Of a DNA stretch of 64,000 nucleotides, positions 29,647-37,021 are shown one piece after another. A model generated the notes under the pieces. That model ran no database searches. It was not told the origin of the DNA and saw only the letters and a program-made list of their open reading frames with translations. This stretch comes from Methanoculleus sediminis. GTDB taxonomy: Archaea; Halobacteriota; Methanomicrobia; Methanomicrobiales; Methanoculleaceae. The stretch lies in assembly GCF_001017125.1 (NCBI RefSeq), contig NZ_JXOJ01000004.1, positions 1-64,000 on the forward strand, read 5' to 3'. The first letter of the stretch is position 1. The number at the start of each line of letters is the position of its first letter. A program made the position numbers and the translations under genes.

Positions 29647-29656
29647 ATAAACCGTG

Positions 29657-30100
29657 ATGAACAGTATGGATACGGCCATGGATCAATACATCGTCTCTGC
29701 GTCTTCGAGCGCGCGCGATCTCGCCCCGATCGTGGTATGTATTCACGATCTGCTTGGTCGGCTGCCTGTTACGGCACGATCCCGCGACCATCCCGGGGTC
29801 AGGGTCGAGGACGGAAAGGTTGTCGACGAGGCTTATACCGGCCCGATCCTCGAGGAAGTCCTGGCGGAGAACGTAACGTTGAGGGTCAGGCCCCCGAGAG
29901 GCCCGTACAAGGGCATCCCGGTTGTGGTGGCGCCGGTAAGGGACGAGGAAGGAAGTGCAATCGGTGCAATCGGCATCGTCGATGTGACCGGCATCTTTGA
30001 TCTGGCGGGTTTCATGGAGCAGAATACGGTGATCCGGAGGCAGGTCTGCGGCGAGGACCCGTGTCCGCTCCCGACCGAGTCGCCTGCAGCGAAAAGGTAA
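29657..30100 (+). CDS. DUF2111 methanogen protein
   Basis: A 147-residue protein matching the methanogen-restricted DUF2111 family: HDLLGRLPVTARSRDHPGVRV (about 26-46), then GPILEEVLAENVTLRV and GAIGIVDVTGIFDLAGFMEQ (about 106-125), a PAS/GAF-like alternation. Function is not established. Several starts are possible (GTG 29654, ATG 29657, ATG 29666). The TAA overlaps the ATG of birA, implying coupled translation with the biotin ligase. Confidence 0.72.
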   Translation: MNSMDTAMDQYIVSASSSARDLAPIVVCIHDLLGRLPVTARSRDHPGVRVEDGKVVDEAYTGPILEEVLAENVTLRVRPPRGPYKGIPVVVAPVRDEEGSAIGAIGIVDVTGIFDLAGFMEQNTVIRRQVCGEDPCPLPTESPAAKR

Positions 30101-31086
30101 TGGACATGAAGGACACGGCAATCAACGTACTGAAGATACTCGAAGAATCGCCCGGCCCGGTATCGGGCGAACGGATTGCAGAGCAGCTGGGCATCACCCG
30201 GTCGGCCGTCTGGAAGCAGATACGCGAACTCCGGAGGCTGGGGTACCGGATATCGTCGTCCCGGGCGGAAGGCTACCGGCTCGAGGCGAAGACCGACCGG
30301 CTCCTCCCCTACGAGGTCAACAAGATGCTCCGTACCCGGACCATCGGACGGCAGATCCGTCACTTCGACAGCACCGCCTCCACGGGCTGGATCGCGAAGA
30401 AACTTGCCGCCGAGACCGATCCTGAAAACCTGCACGGCATGGTGATCATCGCCGAGGAGCAGACCGGGGGGGTGGGACGGCTCGGACGCGCCTGGGTCTC
30501 TCCTGCCGGCGGCATCTGGGCCACCATCCTTTTGAAACCGAAGATCCCGCTCGACCACCTTTTCATGATCACCATGGCCGGGTCGGTCGCGATTGCCCGT
30601 GCCATCCGCAAGGAGTACGACATCAGTACGCTCATCAAGTGGCCCAACGACATCTTTATCGGAGACAAGAAGGTCGCCGGTCTGCTCCTGGAACTCGCTG
30701 CCGAGGCGGATACCGTGCACTACGCCCTCCTGGGGCTCGGGATCGATGCGAACGTCTCTCTCGACGACCTCTCCTCGAACCTGCGGGAGACCGTGACCAC
30801 GCTCCAGGCCGAGGTCGGCCGCGAGGTCGACCGGGTGGCGCTCCTTGCCCGGGTTCTGCGGGAGTTCGAACTGCGCTACCAGCAGCTCGAGGACGGCGAG
30901 TACGACTCCATCATCCGCGAGTGGAAGAGCCTCTCCCGGACGCTCGATCACCGGGTGGCCATCAAGACCGTCAACAAGACCTTCTCGGGAGAGGCCATCG
31001 ATATCGACGAGCACGGTGCCCTGATCATCCGGAAAGACAACGGAAAGATAGAGCGGGTCATCGCCGGCGACTGTTTCCAGCTCTGA
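30100..31086 (+). CDS. birA: Bifunctional biotin ligase/repressor BirA
   Basis: A 328-residue protein with an N-terminal winged HTH (about 3-65; ITRSAVWKQIRELRRLGY is the recognition region), a catalytic biotin-protein ligase domain (GVGRLGRAWVSPAGG about 126-140, KWPNDIFIGDKKVAG about 182-196) and a C-terminal SH3-like domain. It makes biotinyl-AMP and attaches biotin to PycB (Lys in EAMKM at 35.4 kb). The HTH indicates that it also represses transcription; a matching palindromic operator lies 113 bases downstream, before bioY. ATG 30100 overlaps the DUF2111 stop. Confidence 0.93.
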   Translation: MDMKDTAINVLKILEESPGPVSGERIAEQLGITRSAVWKQIRELRRLGYRISSSRAEGYRLEAKTDRLLPYEVNKMLRTRTIGRQIRHFDSTASTGWIAKKLAAETDPENLHGMVIIAEEQTGGVGRLGRAWVSPAGGIWATILLKPKIPLDHLFMITMAGSVAIARAIRKEYDISTLIKWPNDIFIGDKKVAGLLLELAAEADTVHYALLGLGIDANVSLDDLSSNLRETVTTLQAEVGREVDRVALLARVLREFELRYQQLEDGEYDSIIREWKSLSRTLDHRVAIKTVNKTFSGEAIDIDEHGALIIRKDNGKIERVIAGDCFQL

Positions 31087-31198
31087 CCTGCCGGTCAACA
31101 CCCGTACACTTTTTGGATCGGCGAGAAGGTCTCCCCATCGGAACGGAAATCTCCCGGGGTTATGTGATGCAGTTCGTCAGGCATCAACAGGATTTTTC

Positions 31199-31230
31199 TT
31201 GTCAACCATCCAAAATAAAATGGTTGACAT
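31199..31230. promoter_or_regulatory. BirA-type operator before bioY
   Basis: TTGTCAACC-N14-GGTTGACAT is a near-perfect inverted repeat of the form described for BirA operators (TTGTAAACC-N14-16-GGTTTACAA type). The arms extend by AT/AT on the inside. It overlaps the candidate start codons of bioY, so repressor binding would block the promoter or the start site. Assignment rests on the arm sequence, spacing and the HTH-bearing BirA encoded next door. Confidence 0.8.
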
Positions 31231-31729
31231 GATGCACCGAGCCCGGATCCTCGCCTACAGTGGTACGTTCATCGCGCTGATCGCCGCCGGGAGCTGGATC
31301 TCCATCCCGCTTCCCCCGGTACCGCTCACGCTCCAGACGCTTTTCGTCCTGTTATCCGGGATCGTCATGAAGCGCTACGGGGCGATCCCCGTCGCCCTTT
31401 ACGTCCTCCTCGGGGCGGCGGGCCTCCCGGTCTACCACAACGGCACGGCGGGCCTCGGGGTGCTTCTCGGCCCCACGGGCGGGTTCCTGATCGGCTTCAT
31501 CCCCGCCGCCCTCGTCGCCGGGCTCGCCTACGAACAGAAGTCGCCGACGGCGCGGATCACAGGGCTGATCGCGGCGACCGTTCTCACCTACGCCTTCGGC
31601 GTCGCATGGCTCGCCTGGTCGGCGTCGCTCTCGATCTACCAGGCGATCCTGGTCGGCGTCGCCCCGTTCGTCGTCGGTGCCGCCGTAAAGGTCGCGGCGG
31701 CATATGCCATAGGAAAGCGGGTGGCATGA
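31220..31729 (+). CDS. bioY: Biotin ECF transporter S component BioY
   Basis: A 169-residue membrane protein (166 if started at ATG 31229) with about six helices. Family-typical segments are SWISIPLPPVPLTLQTLFVLLSG (about 24-46) and LPVYHNGTAGLGVLLGPTGGFLIGF (about 69-93), which bind biotin. There is no ribosome binding site, and the start codon lies in the BirA operator, so the mRNA may be leaderless or nearly so. Coupled to the ATPase gene by an ATGA overlap. It imports biotin for pyruvate carboxylase. Confidence 0.92.
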   Translation: MVDMMHRARILAYSGTFIALIAAGSWISIPLPPVPLTLQTLFVLLSGIVMKRYGAIPVALYVLLGAAGLPVYHNGTAGLGVLLGPTGGFLIGFIPAALVAGLAYEQKSPTARITGLIAATVLTYAFGVAWLAWSASLSIYQAILVGVAPFVVGAAVKVAAAYAIGKRVA

Positions 31730-32397
31730 TCCGTATCGCCGATCTCCGTCACCGGCTGCTCGATATCCCCGGCCTTGCGGTGGATGCGCGCCATATTGCC
31801 GTTATCGGGCCGAACGGGAGCGGCAAGACGACGCTGCTCTCCGTCTGTTCCGGGATCGAGGAGCCCGATGCGGGAACGGTCCGGCTCCTCGACCGTCCGC
31901 CGTCGGCCGTGAAGGTCGGGTGGGTGGGGGAGTTCCCCGACCGGACGCTCCTCTTCTCCCTGGTCTACGACGAGATCGCGTCGACCCCCCGGTTCCGCCA
32001 CCGCCCCTGCCCCGAGACGGACGCGACGGCCCGGGCGGCCGCGGAGGAGGTCGGCATCCGCCACCTCCTCGGCAAGGAGACCTCGTCCCTCTCCGGGGGC
32101 GAGAAGGCGCTCGTCGCGCTGGCCGCCGCCTGCGCCGGCGATCCCGAGGTGCTCGTCCTGGACGAGGCCGATTCGCACCTGGACGCCGTGACGGCGGAGC
32201 GGGTCTCCCGCGTGGTGCGGGAGAGCACCGCAGCCCACGTCCTCTGGTGCACGCAGTCGATGGACGCCGCGGCTGCCGCGGACTACGTCCTCTTCATGGA
32301 GAAAGGCCGCGTCCGGCACCACGGCACGCCGGCAGAGGTCTTCTCCGCGCTCGAGGAGACGTGCTTTTATCCCACGATGTGGAGGGTCTGCCGGTGA
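31726..32397 (+). CDS. bioM: ECF transporter ATPase (BioM-like)
   Basis: A 223-residue ABC ATPase of the energy-coupling module. Walker A GPNGSGKTTL (about residue 28), signature LSGGEKALVALA (about 121) and Walker B VLVLDEADSHLDA (about 140) are intact. It overlaps bioY upstream and the second ATPase downstream (GTGA). It is one of two different ATPases (EcfA and EcfA') in this locus, as in group I/II ECF systems. Confidence 0.88.
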   Translation: MIRIADLRHRLLDIPGLAVDARHIAVIGPNGSGKTTLLSVCSGIEEPDAGTVRLLDRPPSAVKVGWVGEFPDRTLLFSLVYDEIASTPRFRHRPCPETDATARAAAEEVGIRHLLGKETSSLSGGEKALVALAAACAGDPEVLVLDEADSHLDAVTAERVSRVVRESTAAHVLWCTQSMDAAAAADYVLFMEKGRVRHHGTPAEVFSALEETCFYPTMWRVCR

Positions 32398-33092
32398 GGG
32401 TCGAACTTATGGACCTCGTCTTCTCGCGGGACTCGTTCACTCTCCGGGGCAGCGGCATCTTCGGCGAGGGCGTGCACCTGGTCAGCGGGCCGGTGGGGAG
32501 CGGGAAGTCGACGCTCGCCCTTCTGCTTGCGGGGCTCCTCCGGCCCGAAAGCGGGACAGTCCGGAGGCACGGCGTTCTTTCGGCAGATCTCCTGCTGCAG
32601 TTCCCCGAGCACCACATCACCTGCCCGACGGTCGCCGGGGAGGCCGCTTCCTGGGGGCTCGTGCCGGAGGACGCGCTCGCGCTGGCGGAGTTGTCGGGGC
32701 GTGCGGACGACGACCCGTTCCACCTCTCCCGCGGCGAACTCAAGAGGCTGACCCTGGCCTGCACGCTCCTCAAAAATCCCGACCTGCTGCTGCTGGACGA
32801 ACCGTTCAGTTCTCTCGACTGCACCACGAAGAGGAAGGCCTGCGGAATGCTCGAGGAGCGCGATGCGGGGATCACGATCGTCTTCTCGCACGAGCGCGCG
32901 GTTCTTCCCCGGGTGGACGCGATCTGGGAGATGGAGGGAGGGGTTCTCGCGGCCCGCGGCAGCGTGCCCGACGCGATCCCCTCCTGGCGGCACGCCCCGC
33001 CGTATCTCCGGTATGCCCTGGAACAGGGGGCCCGTCCTGTGAACATCCGGCTCTCCGATGCCCGGGAGGCGCTATGCAGGATCCGCGGCTGA
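32394..33092 (+). CDS. ecfA2: ECF transporter ATPase, second copy
   Basis: A 232-residue ABC ATPase starting at GTG 32394. Walker A GPVGSGKSTL (about residue 31), a signature reading LSRGELKRLTLA (about 121, with Arg in place of the usual Gly at position 3) and Walker B LLLLDEPFSSLD are visible. The QFPEHH Q-loop is the characteristic EcfA form. It ends overlapping ecfT by 19 bases. It should pair with the first ATPase. Confidence 0.87.
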   Translation: MRVELMDLVFSRDSFTLRGSGIFGEGVHLVSGPVGSGKSTLALLLAGLLRPESGTVRRHGVLSADLLLQFPEHHITCPTVAGEAASWGLVPEDALALAELSGRADDDPFHLSRGELKRLTLACTLLKNPDLLLLDEPFSSLDCTTKRKACGMLEERDAGITIVFSHERAVLPRVDAIWEMEGGVLAARGSVPDAIPSWRHAPPYLRYALEQGARPVNIRLSDAREALCRIRG

Positions 33093-33727
33093 GGCTTCTC
33101 TCCGTCGCCCTCCTCTCGCTCGCGGCGTTCGCGAGCACCGCGGGAGCCGCCGCCGCACTCGTCTGGTGGCTGCTGTTTACGCCGCGCATGAAATCACTCC
33201 CCCGGCCGGGGGTTCTGCTGCCGCTCGTCGCGATGATCGCCGCAACGGCGCTCGTCTCCTCGTGGGGCGGCGGCGCGGGGCTCTCCTACCTCTTTCGGAT
33301 GACCGTGATCCTTCTCCTCGCGGCGTGGGCGTATGCCGAGACGGAGGATGGAGAAATGCTTGCCGTGGCGGTATGGGCGCTCGGGAACCGGGTGGGGTTC
33401 GAGGCCGGGCTCGTCGCCGAGATGGGAATTTCCGGCTTATCCGTGCTCCGCCAGGAGATCGAGCAGGTGCGGACGGCGATAGCGCTGAAGGGTATCCGGC
33501 CAGGTGTCCGCTCGGTCGTGCCGCTCGCCGTCACCCTCATCGTCACCCAGATCCGGCGGGCCGACGAGATTGCACGGCTGCTCGTGGTACGGGGATACAC
33601 GATCGGTGGCCGAATCTGTCCCCGGTTCAGGGCTGATCCTCTGGACGTCCCTGCCGCAATAATGGCCGTAATACCCGCCCTTTTATCGACTCTCCCCCTT
33701 CGCGACGTTTTTATATTAGTAGGATGA
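33074..33727 (+). CDS. bioN: ECF transporter transmembrane subunit EcfT/BioN
   Basis: A 217-residue membrane protein with about five helices. The two coupling motifs with an Ala-Arg-Gly core typical of EcfT appear as ALKGIRPG (about 137-144) and LVVRGYTIGG (about 175-184). It is the last gene of the biotin transporter block. Its 3' end contains an AT-rich element that probably serves as the promoter of pycB. Confidence 0.85.
   Translation: MQDPRLRLLSVALLSLAAFASTAGAAAALVWWLLFTPRMKSLPRPGVLLPLVAMIAATALVSSWGGGAGLSYLFRMTVILLLAAWAYAETEDGEMLAVAVWALGNRVGFEAGLVAEMGISGLSVLRQEIEQVRTAIALKGIRPGVRSVVPLAVTLIVTQIRRADEIARLLVVRGYTIGGRICPRFRADPLDVPAAIMAVIPALLSTLPLRDVFILVG
33707..33718 (+). promoter_or_regulatory. 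Putative promoter of pycBA
   Basis: GTTTTTATATTA within the last codons of ecfT, about 65 bases before pycB. It could give the carboxylase its own transcript independent of the BirA-controlled transporter. Confidence 0.4.
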
Positions 33728-33780
33728 ATTTTTGAGAGGCTTTATCGATATCTTCTCAGCCCTTCGAGGTGTACAATTCG

Positions 33781-35529
33781 ATGTGTGCTGCCAAATTAGA
33801 TTCACTCAATATAACCGATACCACGCTTAGGGACGCGCACCAGTCGCTCATCGCCACCCGCCTCCGGACTGAGGACATGCTCCCTCTTGCCCGGGCCATC
33901 GACGAAGTGGGTTTCTTCTCCGTCGAGGCCTGGGGCGGGGCGACCTTTGACAGCTGCATCAGGTTCCTCAACGACGATCCCTGGGAACGTCTCCGGGTGC
34001 TGAAGGCCGAGCTCCGGCGCACGCCTATCCAGATGCTCCTGCGGGGCCAGAACCTCGTGGGCTACCGGCACTATCCCGACGACGTGGTGGAGAAGTTCGT
34101 AGAGGCGTCGGCGCATAACGGGGTCGACATCTTCCGGGTCTTCGATGCGTTGAACGATATCCGGAACATGAAGAAAGCGATGGAGGAGGTCAAGAACGTC
34201 GGGGCGCACCTGCAGGGCGCGATATCCTACACGACGAGCCCTGTTCATTCCGTCGCGACGTTCGTCGAGATGGCGGAAGAACTCTATGCGCTTGGCTGCG
34301 ACTCGATCTGCATCAAGGATATGGCCGGCCTGATCATGCCGCACGATGCCCGCGACCTCATCACGGGGATCAAGGAGACGGCGGACGTCAGGGTCTGCCT
34401 CCACTCCCACTGCACGAGCGGCGTCGCGCCCCTGAGTTACCAGGCGGCGATCGATGCGGGCGTGGATATCCTGGATACGGCGATGTCGCCGTTCGCCCTC
34501 GGCACCTCCCAGCCTCCGACGGAGAGCGTCGTTGCAAGCGTTGCCGGGACGGCGCGCGACACGGGCATCGATCTTCTCCCGCTCCGGAAGGTCAGGAACA
34601 TCTGCCGCGAGATGCGGGAGAAGTACGAGCCCCTCTTCAACTCCATCGCCGACCGGGTCGACTCGGACGTGCTGATCTACCAGCTCCCGGGCGGGATGAT
34701 CTCGAATCTCGTCTCGCAGCTCAAGGAGCAGGACGCGCTCGACCGTCTGGAAGAGGTGTTCCGCGAGATCCCGCGCGTAAGGGAGGATCTCGGCTACCCG
34801 CCGCTCGTTACGCCGACGAGCCAGATCGTGGGCACCCAGGCGGTCTTCAACGTCCTGATGGGCGGCGACCGCTACCGGAACGTGACGAAAGAGGTGAAGG
34901 ACTATGTCCGGGGCCTCTACGGCCGTTCTCCCGCCCCGATCGGCCCGGAGATCCGCAGAACGATCATCGGCGACGAGGAACCGGTCACGGTTCGCCCGGC
35001 GGACCAACTCGCGCCCATCTACGAGCAGATGAGGAAGGAGGCGGAGGAGCAGGGTCTCGTCACCCGGGATGAGGACGTCCTGACCTACATCCTCTACCCG
35101 AGCGTCGCGCCGTCGTTCCTCCGGGGCGAGCGCCAGCCCGAGGCGATCCCCGAGAAGGTGCACGCCGCACCGGCGGGGGTTGCGGAGATCCCCCGTTCCA
35201 TGGAGGTCGAGGTGGACGGCGAGATCTTCTCCGTCCGGATCATCACCGTCGAGGGAGGCTCGGTCGCGGCCCCGTCGGCCGCCGCCGAGTCGGCCAGGGC
35301 TCCCCGCGGGGACGTCGCCGGCGGCGTCAAGAGCAACATGCAGGGCATGGTCCTGAAGGTGATGGCCCGGCGCGGGAGCACCGTCAAGAAGGGCGACACG
35401 CTCATCGTCCTCGAGGCGATGAAGATGGAGAACCCAATCCCCAGCCCCCGCGACGGCACGGTCTCGGAGATCTTCGTGGACGCCGGGGACGTCGTGCAGA
35501 ACGGCGACGTGCTGATGGTCATTGAATGA
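33781..35529 (+). CDS. pycB: Pyruvate carboxylase subunit B
   Basis: A 582-residue subunit with a carboxyltransferase TIM barrel (about 1-290: [37 protein letters not shown]), a conserved helical carboxylase domain and a C-terminal biotinyl domain (about 510-582) with the biotin-accepting Lys in [10 protein letters not shown]. With PycA it makes oxaloacetate from pyruvate, the entry to the incomplete TCA cycle in methanogens. ATG 33781 follows GAGGTG at good spacing; GTG 33769 is less likely. An oxaloacetate decarboxylase alpha subunit is excluded by the partner biotin carboxylase and absence of membrane subunits. Confidence 0.95.
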
Positions 35530-35545: not shown

Positions 35546-37021
35546 ATGAAATACTTTGACAAGATCCTGATCGCCAACCGCGGCGAGATTGCCATCCGGG
35601 TCATGCGTGCATGCCGGGAGCTGGGCATCGATACGGTCGCGATCTACTCCGAGCCGGACAACAACGCGCTCCACGTCAAGTACGCCGACGAGGCGTTCTG
35701 TGTCGGCGAAGCGCACCCGTCGAAGAGTTACCTCAACAAGGAGCGGATCTGCGACGTGGCGAGAAAGACCGGGGCCGAGGCAATCCATCCGGGCTACGGG
35801 TTCCTTGCGGAGAACGCCGGGTTCGCGAAACTGGTCGAGGAAGAGGGCCTGACGTTCATCGGCCCGTCGTGGAAGACGATCGAGGCGCTGGGCTCGAAGA
35901 TCGGGTCGAAGCGGATGATGCGCGAGGCCGGCGTCCCGGTTCTCCCGGGCACGCCCGAGGGTGTCACGAGCGTCGATGCAGCGAAGAAGGTCGCCGCCGA
36001 GATCGGCTACCCGGTGATCGTGAAGGCGAGCGCGGGCGGCGGCGGTATCGGGATGCACATCGCCGAGAACGAGGGCGAGCTCGAGGAGGCGATCGACAAG
36101 GGGATGCGGATCGCCCAGTCGGCCTTCGGCGATCCGACGATCTTCGTGGAGAAGTATCTCACGAAGCCGCGCCATATCGAGATCCAGGTTCTTGCCGACG
36201 CGAAGGGGCACACCGTCCACCTCTACGACCGCGAGTGCTCGATCCAGCGCCGGCACCAGAAACTGCTGGAGGAGGCGCCCTGCCCGATCATGACGCCCGC
36301 TCTCCGGGAGCAGATGACGGCGTCGGCCATCGCCGCGGCAAAGGCGGCGAACTACAAGAACGCCGGCACGGTGGAGTTCCTCTACTCGAACGGGAACTAC
36401 TACTTCATGGAGGTGAACACCCGGCTGCAGGTGGAGCACACGGTCACGGAGTTCATCACCGGGATCGATATGGTGAAGCAGCAGATCGCGATCGCGGCGG
36501 GCGAAGACCTCGCGATGGGCCAGGAGGATATCGGCATCCGGGGGCACGCGATCGAGTGCCGGATCAACGCGGAGGACCCGCTGAACAACTTCGCCGCCGA
36601 TCCGGGCAAGATCGTCCGCTACCGCTCACCGGGAGGCCCGGGGATACGGGTCGACTCCGGCATCCACATGGGCTACACCATCCCGGCGCACTACGACTCG
36701 ATGATCTCGAAGCTCTGCGCTCTCGGCTCCGACCGCGAGGAGGCGATCCAGCGGATGCGCCGGGCGATCTACGAGTACGTCATCCTGGGCGTGAAGACGA
36801 CGCTCCCGCTCCACTACGCGATCATGCACAACGCCCACTTCATCGCCGGCGACACCCACACGCACTTCCTGCAGGAGGAGCACATCGCGACGAGCCTGCG
36901 CCGCTACCTCCATGAGGAGGAGGCCCGTATGCAGACGCTGGCCGCCTCGCTCCGCCAGGGGAAGCACGTGGCGGCGATCACGGCGGCGGTCGACGTCTAT
37001 ATCCGGAAAAACACGAAGTAA
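35546..37021 (+). CDS. pycA: Pyruvate carboxylase subunit A (biotin carboxylase)
   Basis: A 491-residue ATP-grasp biotin carboxylase. It carboxylates the biotin on PycB using ATP and bicarbonate. Motifs: [20 protein letters not shown] at the N-terminus, the glycine-rich ATP loop [12 protein letters not shown] (about 163-174), [11 protein letters not shown] (about 236) and [14 protein letters not shown] (about 288-301). Length is as usual. ATG 35546 ([13 protein letters not shown]) is the family start. It lies 16 bases after pycB; in most archaea the order or distance differs, so here the two form one operon. Confidence 0.95.

Follow-up and report, generated by a model that had tools for sequence, protein, structure and literature searches.

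BirA is reportedly among the few regulators whose binding signal has been proposed to be common to bacteria and archaea; Rodionov, Mironov and Gelfand (2002, Genome Res 12:1507) are said to have predicted archaeal BirA sites and to have linked the DNA-binding domain of BirA to them. For bacteria, the excerpted text of PMC545781 gives the BirA consensus as TTGTAAACC-[N14/15]-GGTTTACAA and lists delta-proteobacterial sites such as TTGTcAACC-[N14]-GGTTgACgA, and operator sequence and spacing differ among bacteria too, as described for E. coli and B. subtilis in an excerpt of PMC4016012. BirA sequences whose N-terminal domain is missing positions that matter for regulation have already been noted (PMC3199775, excerpt). 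In archaea, LrpA of Pyrococcus furiosus borders the TATA box on its downstream side and excludes RNA polymerase while TBP and TFB stay bound, and MDR1 of Archaeoglobus fulgidus is said in the same excerpt to act like LrpA (PMC2995911).

The locus compared here lies in a 64,000-nucleotide stretch of Methanoculleus sediminis DNA (contig NZ_JXOJ01000004.1, positions 1 to 64,000), hereafter the window, whose closest named contigs are Methanoculleus. It contains the following genes:

30106–31086, + strand: birA, with HTH_11, biotin ligase and BPL_C domains, i.e. a group II BirA (domain search)
31229–31729, + strand: bioY (PF02632), the biotin-specific S component of an ECF transporter, with 31220 as a possible alternative start
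31726–32397, + strand: ABC ATPase, bioM-like (best NCBIfam matches are ECF ATPases, below cut-offs)
32394–33092, + strand: second ABC ATPase of the cluster (domain search)
33074–33727, + strand: possible transmembrane T component, bioN-like, named from its position only (no Pfam or NCBIfam match)
33769–35529, + strand: pycB, pyruvate carboxylase subunit B (domain search)
35546–37021, + strand: biotin carboxylase subunit, assigned to pycA because it adjoins pycB

Among solved structures, the best sequence matches to the BirA of the window were full-length bifunctional chains (e.g. 6apw and 3rir), and its N-terminal helix-turn-helix (HTH) domain carries an intact recognition helix, TRSAVWK. PycB contains the sole biotin/lipoyl domain found in the genome, and matches to biotin synthase (bioB), the one biotin-synthesis gene examined, fell below the curated cut-off; the organism therefore seems to import its biotin and to have a single biotin enzyme. 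A bpl/birA gene has reportedly been studied together with the pyc genes in Methanosarcina barkeri (Mukhopadhyay 2001); in the window, an ABC/ECF biotin transporter lies between birA and pycBA. A DUF2111 gene (29654–30100) directly precedes birA in the window, and in many relatives without an operator the tract just upstream of birA resembles, by eye, the end of a DUF2111 gene.

The original prediction had placed a BirA operator, TTGTCAACC-N14-GGTTGACAT, over the start codon of bioY, and this sequence was found exactly at 31199–31230. Its arms are present but longer than had been claimed, with ten bases on each side forming a perfect inverted repeat (31200–31209 and 31220–31229). The operator and the elements around it are:

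31200–31229, no strand: predicted BirA operator op2, TGTCAACCAT-N10-ATGGTTGACA, or TGTCAACC-N14-GGTTGACA in BirA notation
31192–31200, + strand: TATA-like element ATTTTTCTT, directly against the left arm of the operator (top site of the tRNA-promoter model; T-rich columns in 105 loci)
31213–31223, + strand: initiator-like element AAATAAAATGG (tRNA-promoter model; transcription start predicted at about 31218–31223)
31220–31222, + strand: candidate leaderless start ATG, inside the right arm (a register seen in many loci of families f8 and f9)
31229–31231, + strand: candidate start ATG, its A being the final base of the operator (37 of the 105 operator loci of the order have this register)

With up to three mismatches allowed, TTGTCAACC-N14-GGTTGACAT occurred at a single place in the 64-kb window (0.02 expected by shuffling), and TGTCAACCAT-N10-ATGGTTGACA, with up to three mismatches in its 20 arm positions, occurred once in the 2.49-Mb genome, at bioY, in a scan that used only this long pattern and had shorter or weaker forms outside its scope. 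The site lies upstream of a biotin-uptake gene and is rare elsewhere in the genome, as is expected of a BirA operator, and it matches the palindrome TTGTNAACC-N14/15-GGTTNACAA, the outermost base of its right arm differing (T for A). A chance palindrome was ruled out by these window and genome scans together with the comparison with control windows in the order.

BioY was present in 143 of 150 genomes of the order, and 142 loci (the window and L020–L160) were compared; G130, whose bioY is broken by stops, was left out. A BirA-like palindrome scoring at least 12/16 was found near bioY in 109 of them, and no site near bioY reached this score in 33. In the roughly 100 nt before the bioY start, a score of at least 13/16 was reached by 101 of 140 loci, as against 3 of 2697 control windows drawn from these loci (L080 and L158, without 100 nt of upstream sequence, were excluded). 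The operator stands at the bioY start (within 62 nt) in 105 of the 142 loci, the window included, and in 103 of these it lies no more than five bases from a start codon; only an upstream copy was found in L045, L074, L082 and L115. When the search for an in-frame ATG began three bases before the operator end and the first one met was taken as the start, a rule that ignores starts like ATG 31220, the ATG followed the operator directly in 42 of the 105 loci and shared its A with the last operator base in 37 (i.e. abutting it or overlapping it by one base in 79), and came three bases later in a further 14. An inverted-repeat scan before birA in 24 operator-less loci with enough upstream DNA reached at best 7/8 pairs, none seen to be of BirA type, and a search for a displaced operator in eight operator-less genomes (two mismatches) gave 28 forward matches against 21 in the reversed control, none of them at bioY.

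Outside the order, 61 bioY loci from 60 genomes of the phylum were scored (G184, G205 and G229 were left out). A site of at least 12/16 was found in 52 of the 61 loci against 18 of 223 control windows, and one of at least 13/16 in 46 against 7; with 109 of 142 loci in the order, predicted archaeal BirA sites are not rare; it was the documented ones that the original prediction had called few. The register between operator and start varied by family code. In f9 and f8, which we take to be Archaeoglobus-like and Methanosarcina-like respectively, an ATG lies ten bases before the operator end (12/13 and 9/16 operator loci), such that ATG-GTT stands in the right arm, and this is the register of ATG 31220 in the window. 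In f14 the ATG lies 0–5 bases past the operator (4/4), and in f13, f17, f20, f22 and f23, of which f13, f20 and f22 are presumably haloarchaea, the operator ends 13–17 bases before the ATG in all 19 operator loci; by arithmetic only, the operator spacer in these five families would sit where the TATA box of a leaderless gene would lie. Three f8 sites (L162, L163 and L168) are more than 100 nt upstream, and that of L168 (score 12) may be there by chance. Four f14 genomes (G165, G157, G172 and G178) have a second, ligase-only BirA match in open frames of 724–813 codons, which suggests a biotin ligase fused to a larger protein, and a similar frame of 707 codons is the sole BirA match of G218. A BirA-like repeat, TTGTAAACC-N18-GGTTTACAA, also ends 1 nt before the ATG of a Treponema bioY (L019, 3425–3462), so proximity to the start codon alone is not restricted to archaea.

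The arms were analysed as 104 distinct pairs from 155 operators, leaving out L163 and L168 with their far upstream sites. Position 1 was symmetric in 80 of the 104 pairs against 50.6 expected under independent arms, and position 4 in 73 against 37.8, in sequences that are related and whose counts are not independent. Among the 94 non-complementary arm cells, 26 were of G–T type and 68 were other. Symmetric arms with mostly non-G–T mismatches point to a DNA site recognised by a dimer more than to an RNA stem. A role of the palindrome as an RNA hairpin that hides the start codon, i.e. translational control instead of a DNA operator, would be in line with the folding of the transcribed palindrome (stem −15.1 kcal/mol, z −3.25), but we consider it very improbable, since only a minority of the mismatched cells are wobble pairs, the sequence is that of a BirA operator and goes with the BirA helix, and a transcription start in the right arm, as predicted, would leave the left arm out of the RNA.

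The presence of the operator was compared with the state of the BirA recognition helix in 116 loci of the order with a readable N-terminal region (25 of the 142 loci have no complete birA, and L139, with stops in its birA frame, was dropped), using a helix motif that was written after the alignment had been seen. All 92 operator loci with a readable BirA keep the motif, and 21 of 24 operator-less loci lack the motif or the whole domain, counting L030, which keeps VWK and fails at one residue. The motif is kept without an operator at bioY in L022, L031 and L052; in L052, a site of 14/16 stands 333 nt upstream. Five changes of the operator and four of the motif were counted on a BirA ligase tree; an independent-pairs sign test was not significant (median p 0.25), the co-occurrence reflecting few independent events. 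Outside the order, the BirA match reaches into the HTH in 51 of 51 operator genomes, and among nine operator-less genomes five have the ligase part only, one has no match at E 1e-8 and in three (G197, G201 and G217) the match extends into the HTH. Loss of the site where the DNA-binding domain is lost was thus found in 21/24 loci (with 92/92 retaining both) in the order and in 6/9 genomes (with 51/51) outside it, again with few independent events. In three f3 loci (L056, L130 and L131), the BirA match is without the HTH and bioY follows within about 20 nt.

A transcription factor other than BirA might use the palindrome, which would suit the two loci of the order (L022 and L031) and the three genomes outside it that retain the BirA helix or an HTH-containing BirA but have no operator at bioY. 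We regard this as highly unlikely given the BirA consensus and spacing, the neighbouring birA and the co-occurrence in 92 of 92 loci. The identity as a BirA operator put forward in the original prediction was upheld by the consensus match, the adjacent group II birA, conservation, symmetric changes in the arms and co-loss with the recognition helix, and on these sequence grounds the assignment of 31200–31229 as the operator of the adjacent group II BirA is well supported.

Four in-frame starts are available to bioY, namely TTG 31199, ATG 31220, ATG 31229 and ATG 31232. The operator had been thought to cover all plausible ones, which is true of TTG 31199 and ATG 31220, both inside 31199–31230, whereas ATG 31229 shares only its A with the perfect repeat, as the terminal base of that repeat, and ATG 31232 falls just beyond the stretch. 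A ribosome binding site had been claimed to be missing, and the best Shine–Dalgarno match before ATG 31229 or 31232 is indeed only 3 nt long (GGT, part of the right arm), and that before ATG 31220, ATCC, does not fall within the GGAGG core; elsewhere in the cluster, five genes have matches of 4–5 nt. Such a weak match is, however, not special to operator loci: the best match was no longer than 3 nt in 58 of the 105, and among operator-less loci this held for 20 of 32. The same 58 of 105 led us to reject a Shine–Dalgarno sequence as a general rule at operator loci. Matches of 6–7 nt occurred in eight loci, and the 7-nt match of five loci would suit a longer leader there. In L058, L099, L108, L109 and L112, the operator spacer and right arm read AGGAGGT before the ATG, and the right arm may there double as a Shine–Dalgarno sequence.

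Promoters were predicted using a two-part model (TATA and initiator-like words), for which 17 of the 30 tRNA loci taken from the window's genome were read by eye, a choice that could flatter the model. In the 105 operator loci the search covered a span running from 60 nt upstream of the operator's left end to 40 nt past it. In an unsupervised motif search on 29 tRNA upstream regions the TATA and initiator words had come out mixed, and it was dropped in favour of the 17 loci, in which an initiator-like word near ACATTRTARGG recurs 12–15 nt past the TATA box (tRNA promoters among L225–L254). The 3′ end of the predicted TATA box lay no more than 3 nt from the left arm in 89 of the 105 operator loci (7 of about 100 scanned positions qualify), and the model score exceeded the 95th percentile of a birA-coding control in 83, the control being richer in G+C and hence lenient and flattering. 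T-rich bases stand directly before the left arm, with T at −3 in 100 of the 105 loci.

In the window, the operator would border the predicted TATA box (31192–31200) on its downstream side, the placement known for LrpA. Archaeal promoters usually have about 26 nt between the centre of the TATA box and the transcription start, so that transcription from the predicted box would start near 31220, and a transcription start of bioY inside the right arm of the operator is supported by the model. The suggestion that the repressor sits on the transcription start agrees with this tRNA-trained prediction. A leaderless bioY mRNA, previously called probable, is plausible from ATG 31220, but a predicted leader of about 8–9 nt to ATG 31229 fits as well. 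BirA might also use this operator as a roadblock to elongating polymerase, with bioY mainly read through from birA or from a promoter further upstream, and the two genes are indeed co-directional and 142 bp apart in the window, bioY lying within about 15–65 nt of birA in many loci with and without an operator. We nevertheless find this unlikely, because a predicted TATA-like box abuts the operator in those 89 loci and because operators of 14–16/16 persist where birA is 445–853 nt from bioY (L079 and L090 in the genus; L058 in another genus of the family).

Tandem operators were analysed in 28 loci of the window's genus (the window included) at a threshold of 13/16. Both operators were present in seven loci, only the upstream one in six, only the one at the start in 14, the window being one of these, and neither in one. 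The copies of the seven tandem loci start 39–41 bp apart, with a T-rich word between them. In the 14 downstream-only loci the downstream copy scores 16 (12 loci) or 15 (two loci), as compared with the 13 loci with an upstream copy, where the downstream copy scores 16 in only two and 8–15 in the rest; 26 of the 28 loci hold a copy of 15 or 16 out of 16. This reads as reciprocal decay, in which a single near-perfect copy would suffice, whichever side of the TATA box it is on, although a strict rule is contradicted by L029, whose two copies are both imperfect (14 and 13), and by L052, which has no copy close to the start. Just 3′ of birA, the window reads GGTCAAC ... GGATCGGC (31093–31122), which by eye resembles a decayed upstream operator (op1); the tract between this candidate remnant and the TATA box is longer than in tandem relatives with an intact op1. 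L060, L089 and L090 share a tract about 45–120 nt before bioY, directly upstream of their single operator, as if an insertion had replaced the upstream operator, and the window is without this tract.

The sequence itself shows the palindrome, its conservation, its position with a TATA-like box on one side and the bioY start on the other, and its co-occurrence with an intact recognition helix. From these we infer binding by BirA–biotinyl-AMP, repression and a steric block of the polymerase, and we think it probable that BirA–biotinyl-AMP represses biotin uptake by blocking polymerase at the bioY start site. BirA would retain biotinyl-AMP, dimerise and bind both operator arms when no further biotin can be attached to PycB, the sole biotin acceptor found. 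Bound in this way, next to the TATA box on its downstream side, BirA would cover the transcription start and the start codon; RNA polymerase would be unable to load, and the transporter operon (bioY and the two ATPases, perhaps pycBA too) would be switched off. At low biotin the operator would be freed, and the mRNA would begin inside the right arm, being either leaderless (ATG 31220) or preceded by the short leader to ATG 31229.

We give an even chance to the broader proposition that the BirA operator has been built into the core promoter in this archaeal phylum, its edge meeting the TATA box, its spacer and right arm giving the initiator and, in some families, the right arm giving the leaderless start and the first codons (ATG-GTT-RAC), with tandem copies about 40 bp apart flanking the TATA box in the fullest form seen in the genus and lineages passing control between the copies, one of which nearly always stays close to perfect. 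If this is true, repressor site, transcription start and start codon would be the same nucleotides. The pattern shows a bacterial-type operator fitted into archaeal promoters, in a register that is mostly constant within groups and shifted between them; where the helix that reads the DNA has degenerated, the operator is missing. Tandem and single arrangements side by side in a single genus form a natural series for testing where a repressor has to sit to block the archaeal polymerase, and the locus bears on the control of uptake in methanogens that seem to import biotin.

The operator type is already known, and the archaeal promoter architecture is the more novel reading; in the literature searched, which covered few subscription papers, we found no published account of it and no description of an archaeal BirA operator at the start codon or of the tandem layout. 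Relative to the work of Rodionov et al. 2002, the sites are of the same kind, and what is analysed here is their register to the TATA box and start codon, the tandem sites and the decay of the helix. The site shares with bacterial BirA operators (E. coli bioO; S. aureus bioY and bio; B. subtilis bio, yuiG and yhfU; Geobacter and Desulfuromonas) the same palindrome, a group II BirA and targets in biotin synthesis or uptake (as excerpted from PMC545781, PMC6391492 and PMC4016012), and differs from them in that the archaeal site is set between a TATA-like box and the start codon. Our operator-less loci look like the degenerate N-terminal BirA cases of PMC3199775, and we go beyond the excerpted account in tying the decay of the helix, locus by locus, to the absence of an operator at bioY. 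By analogy, LrpA would be the closest archaeal mechanistic model for the proposed block by BirA, although LrpA (Lrp family) and MDR1 (metal-dependent) are regulators of kinds different from BirA.
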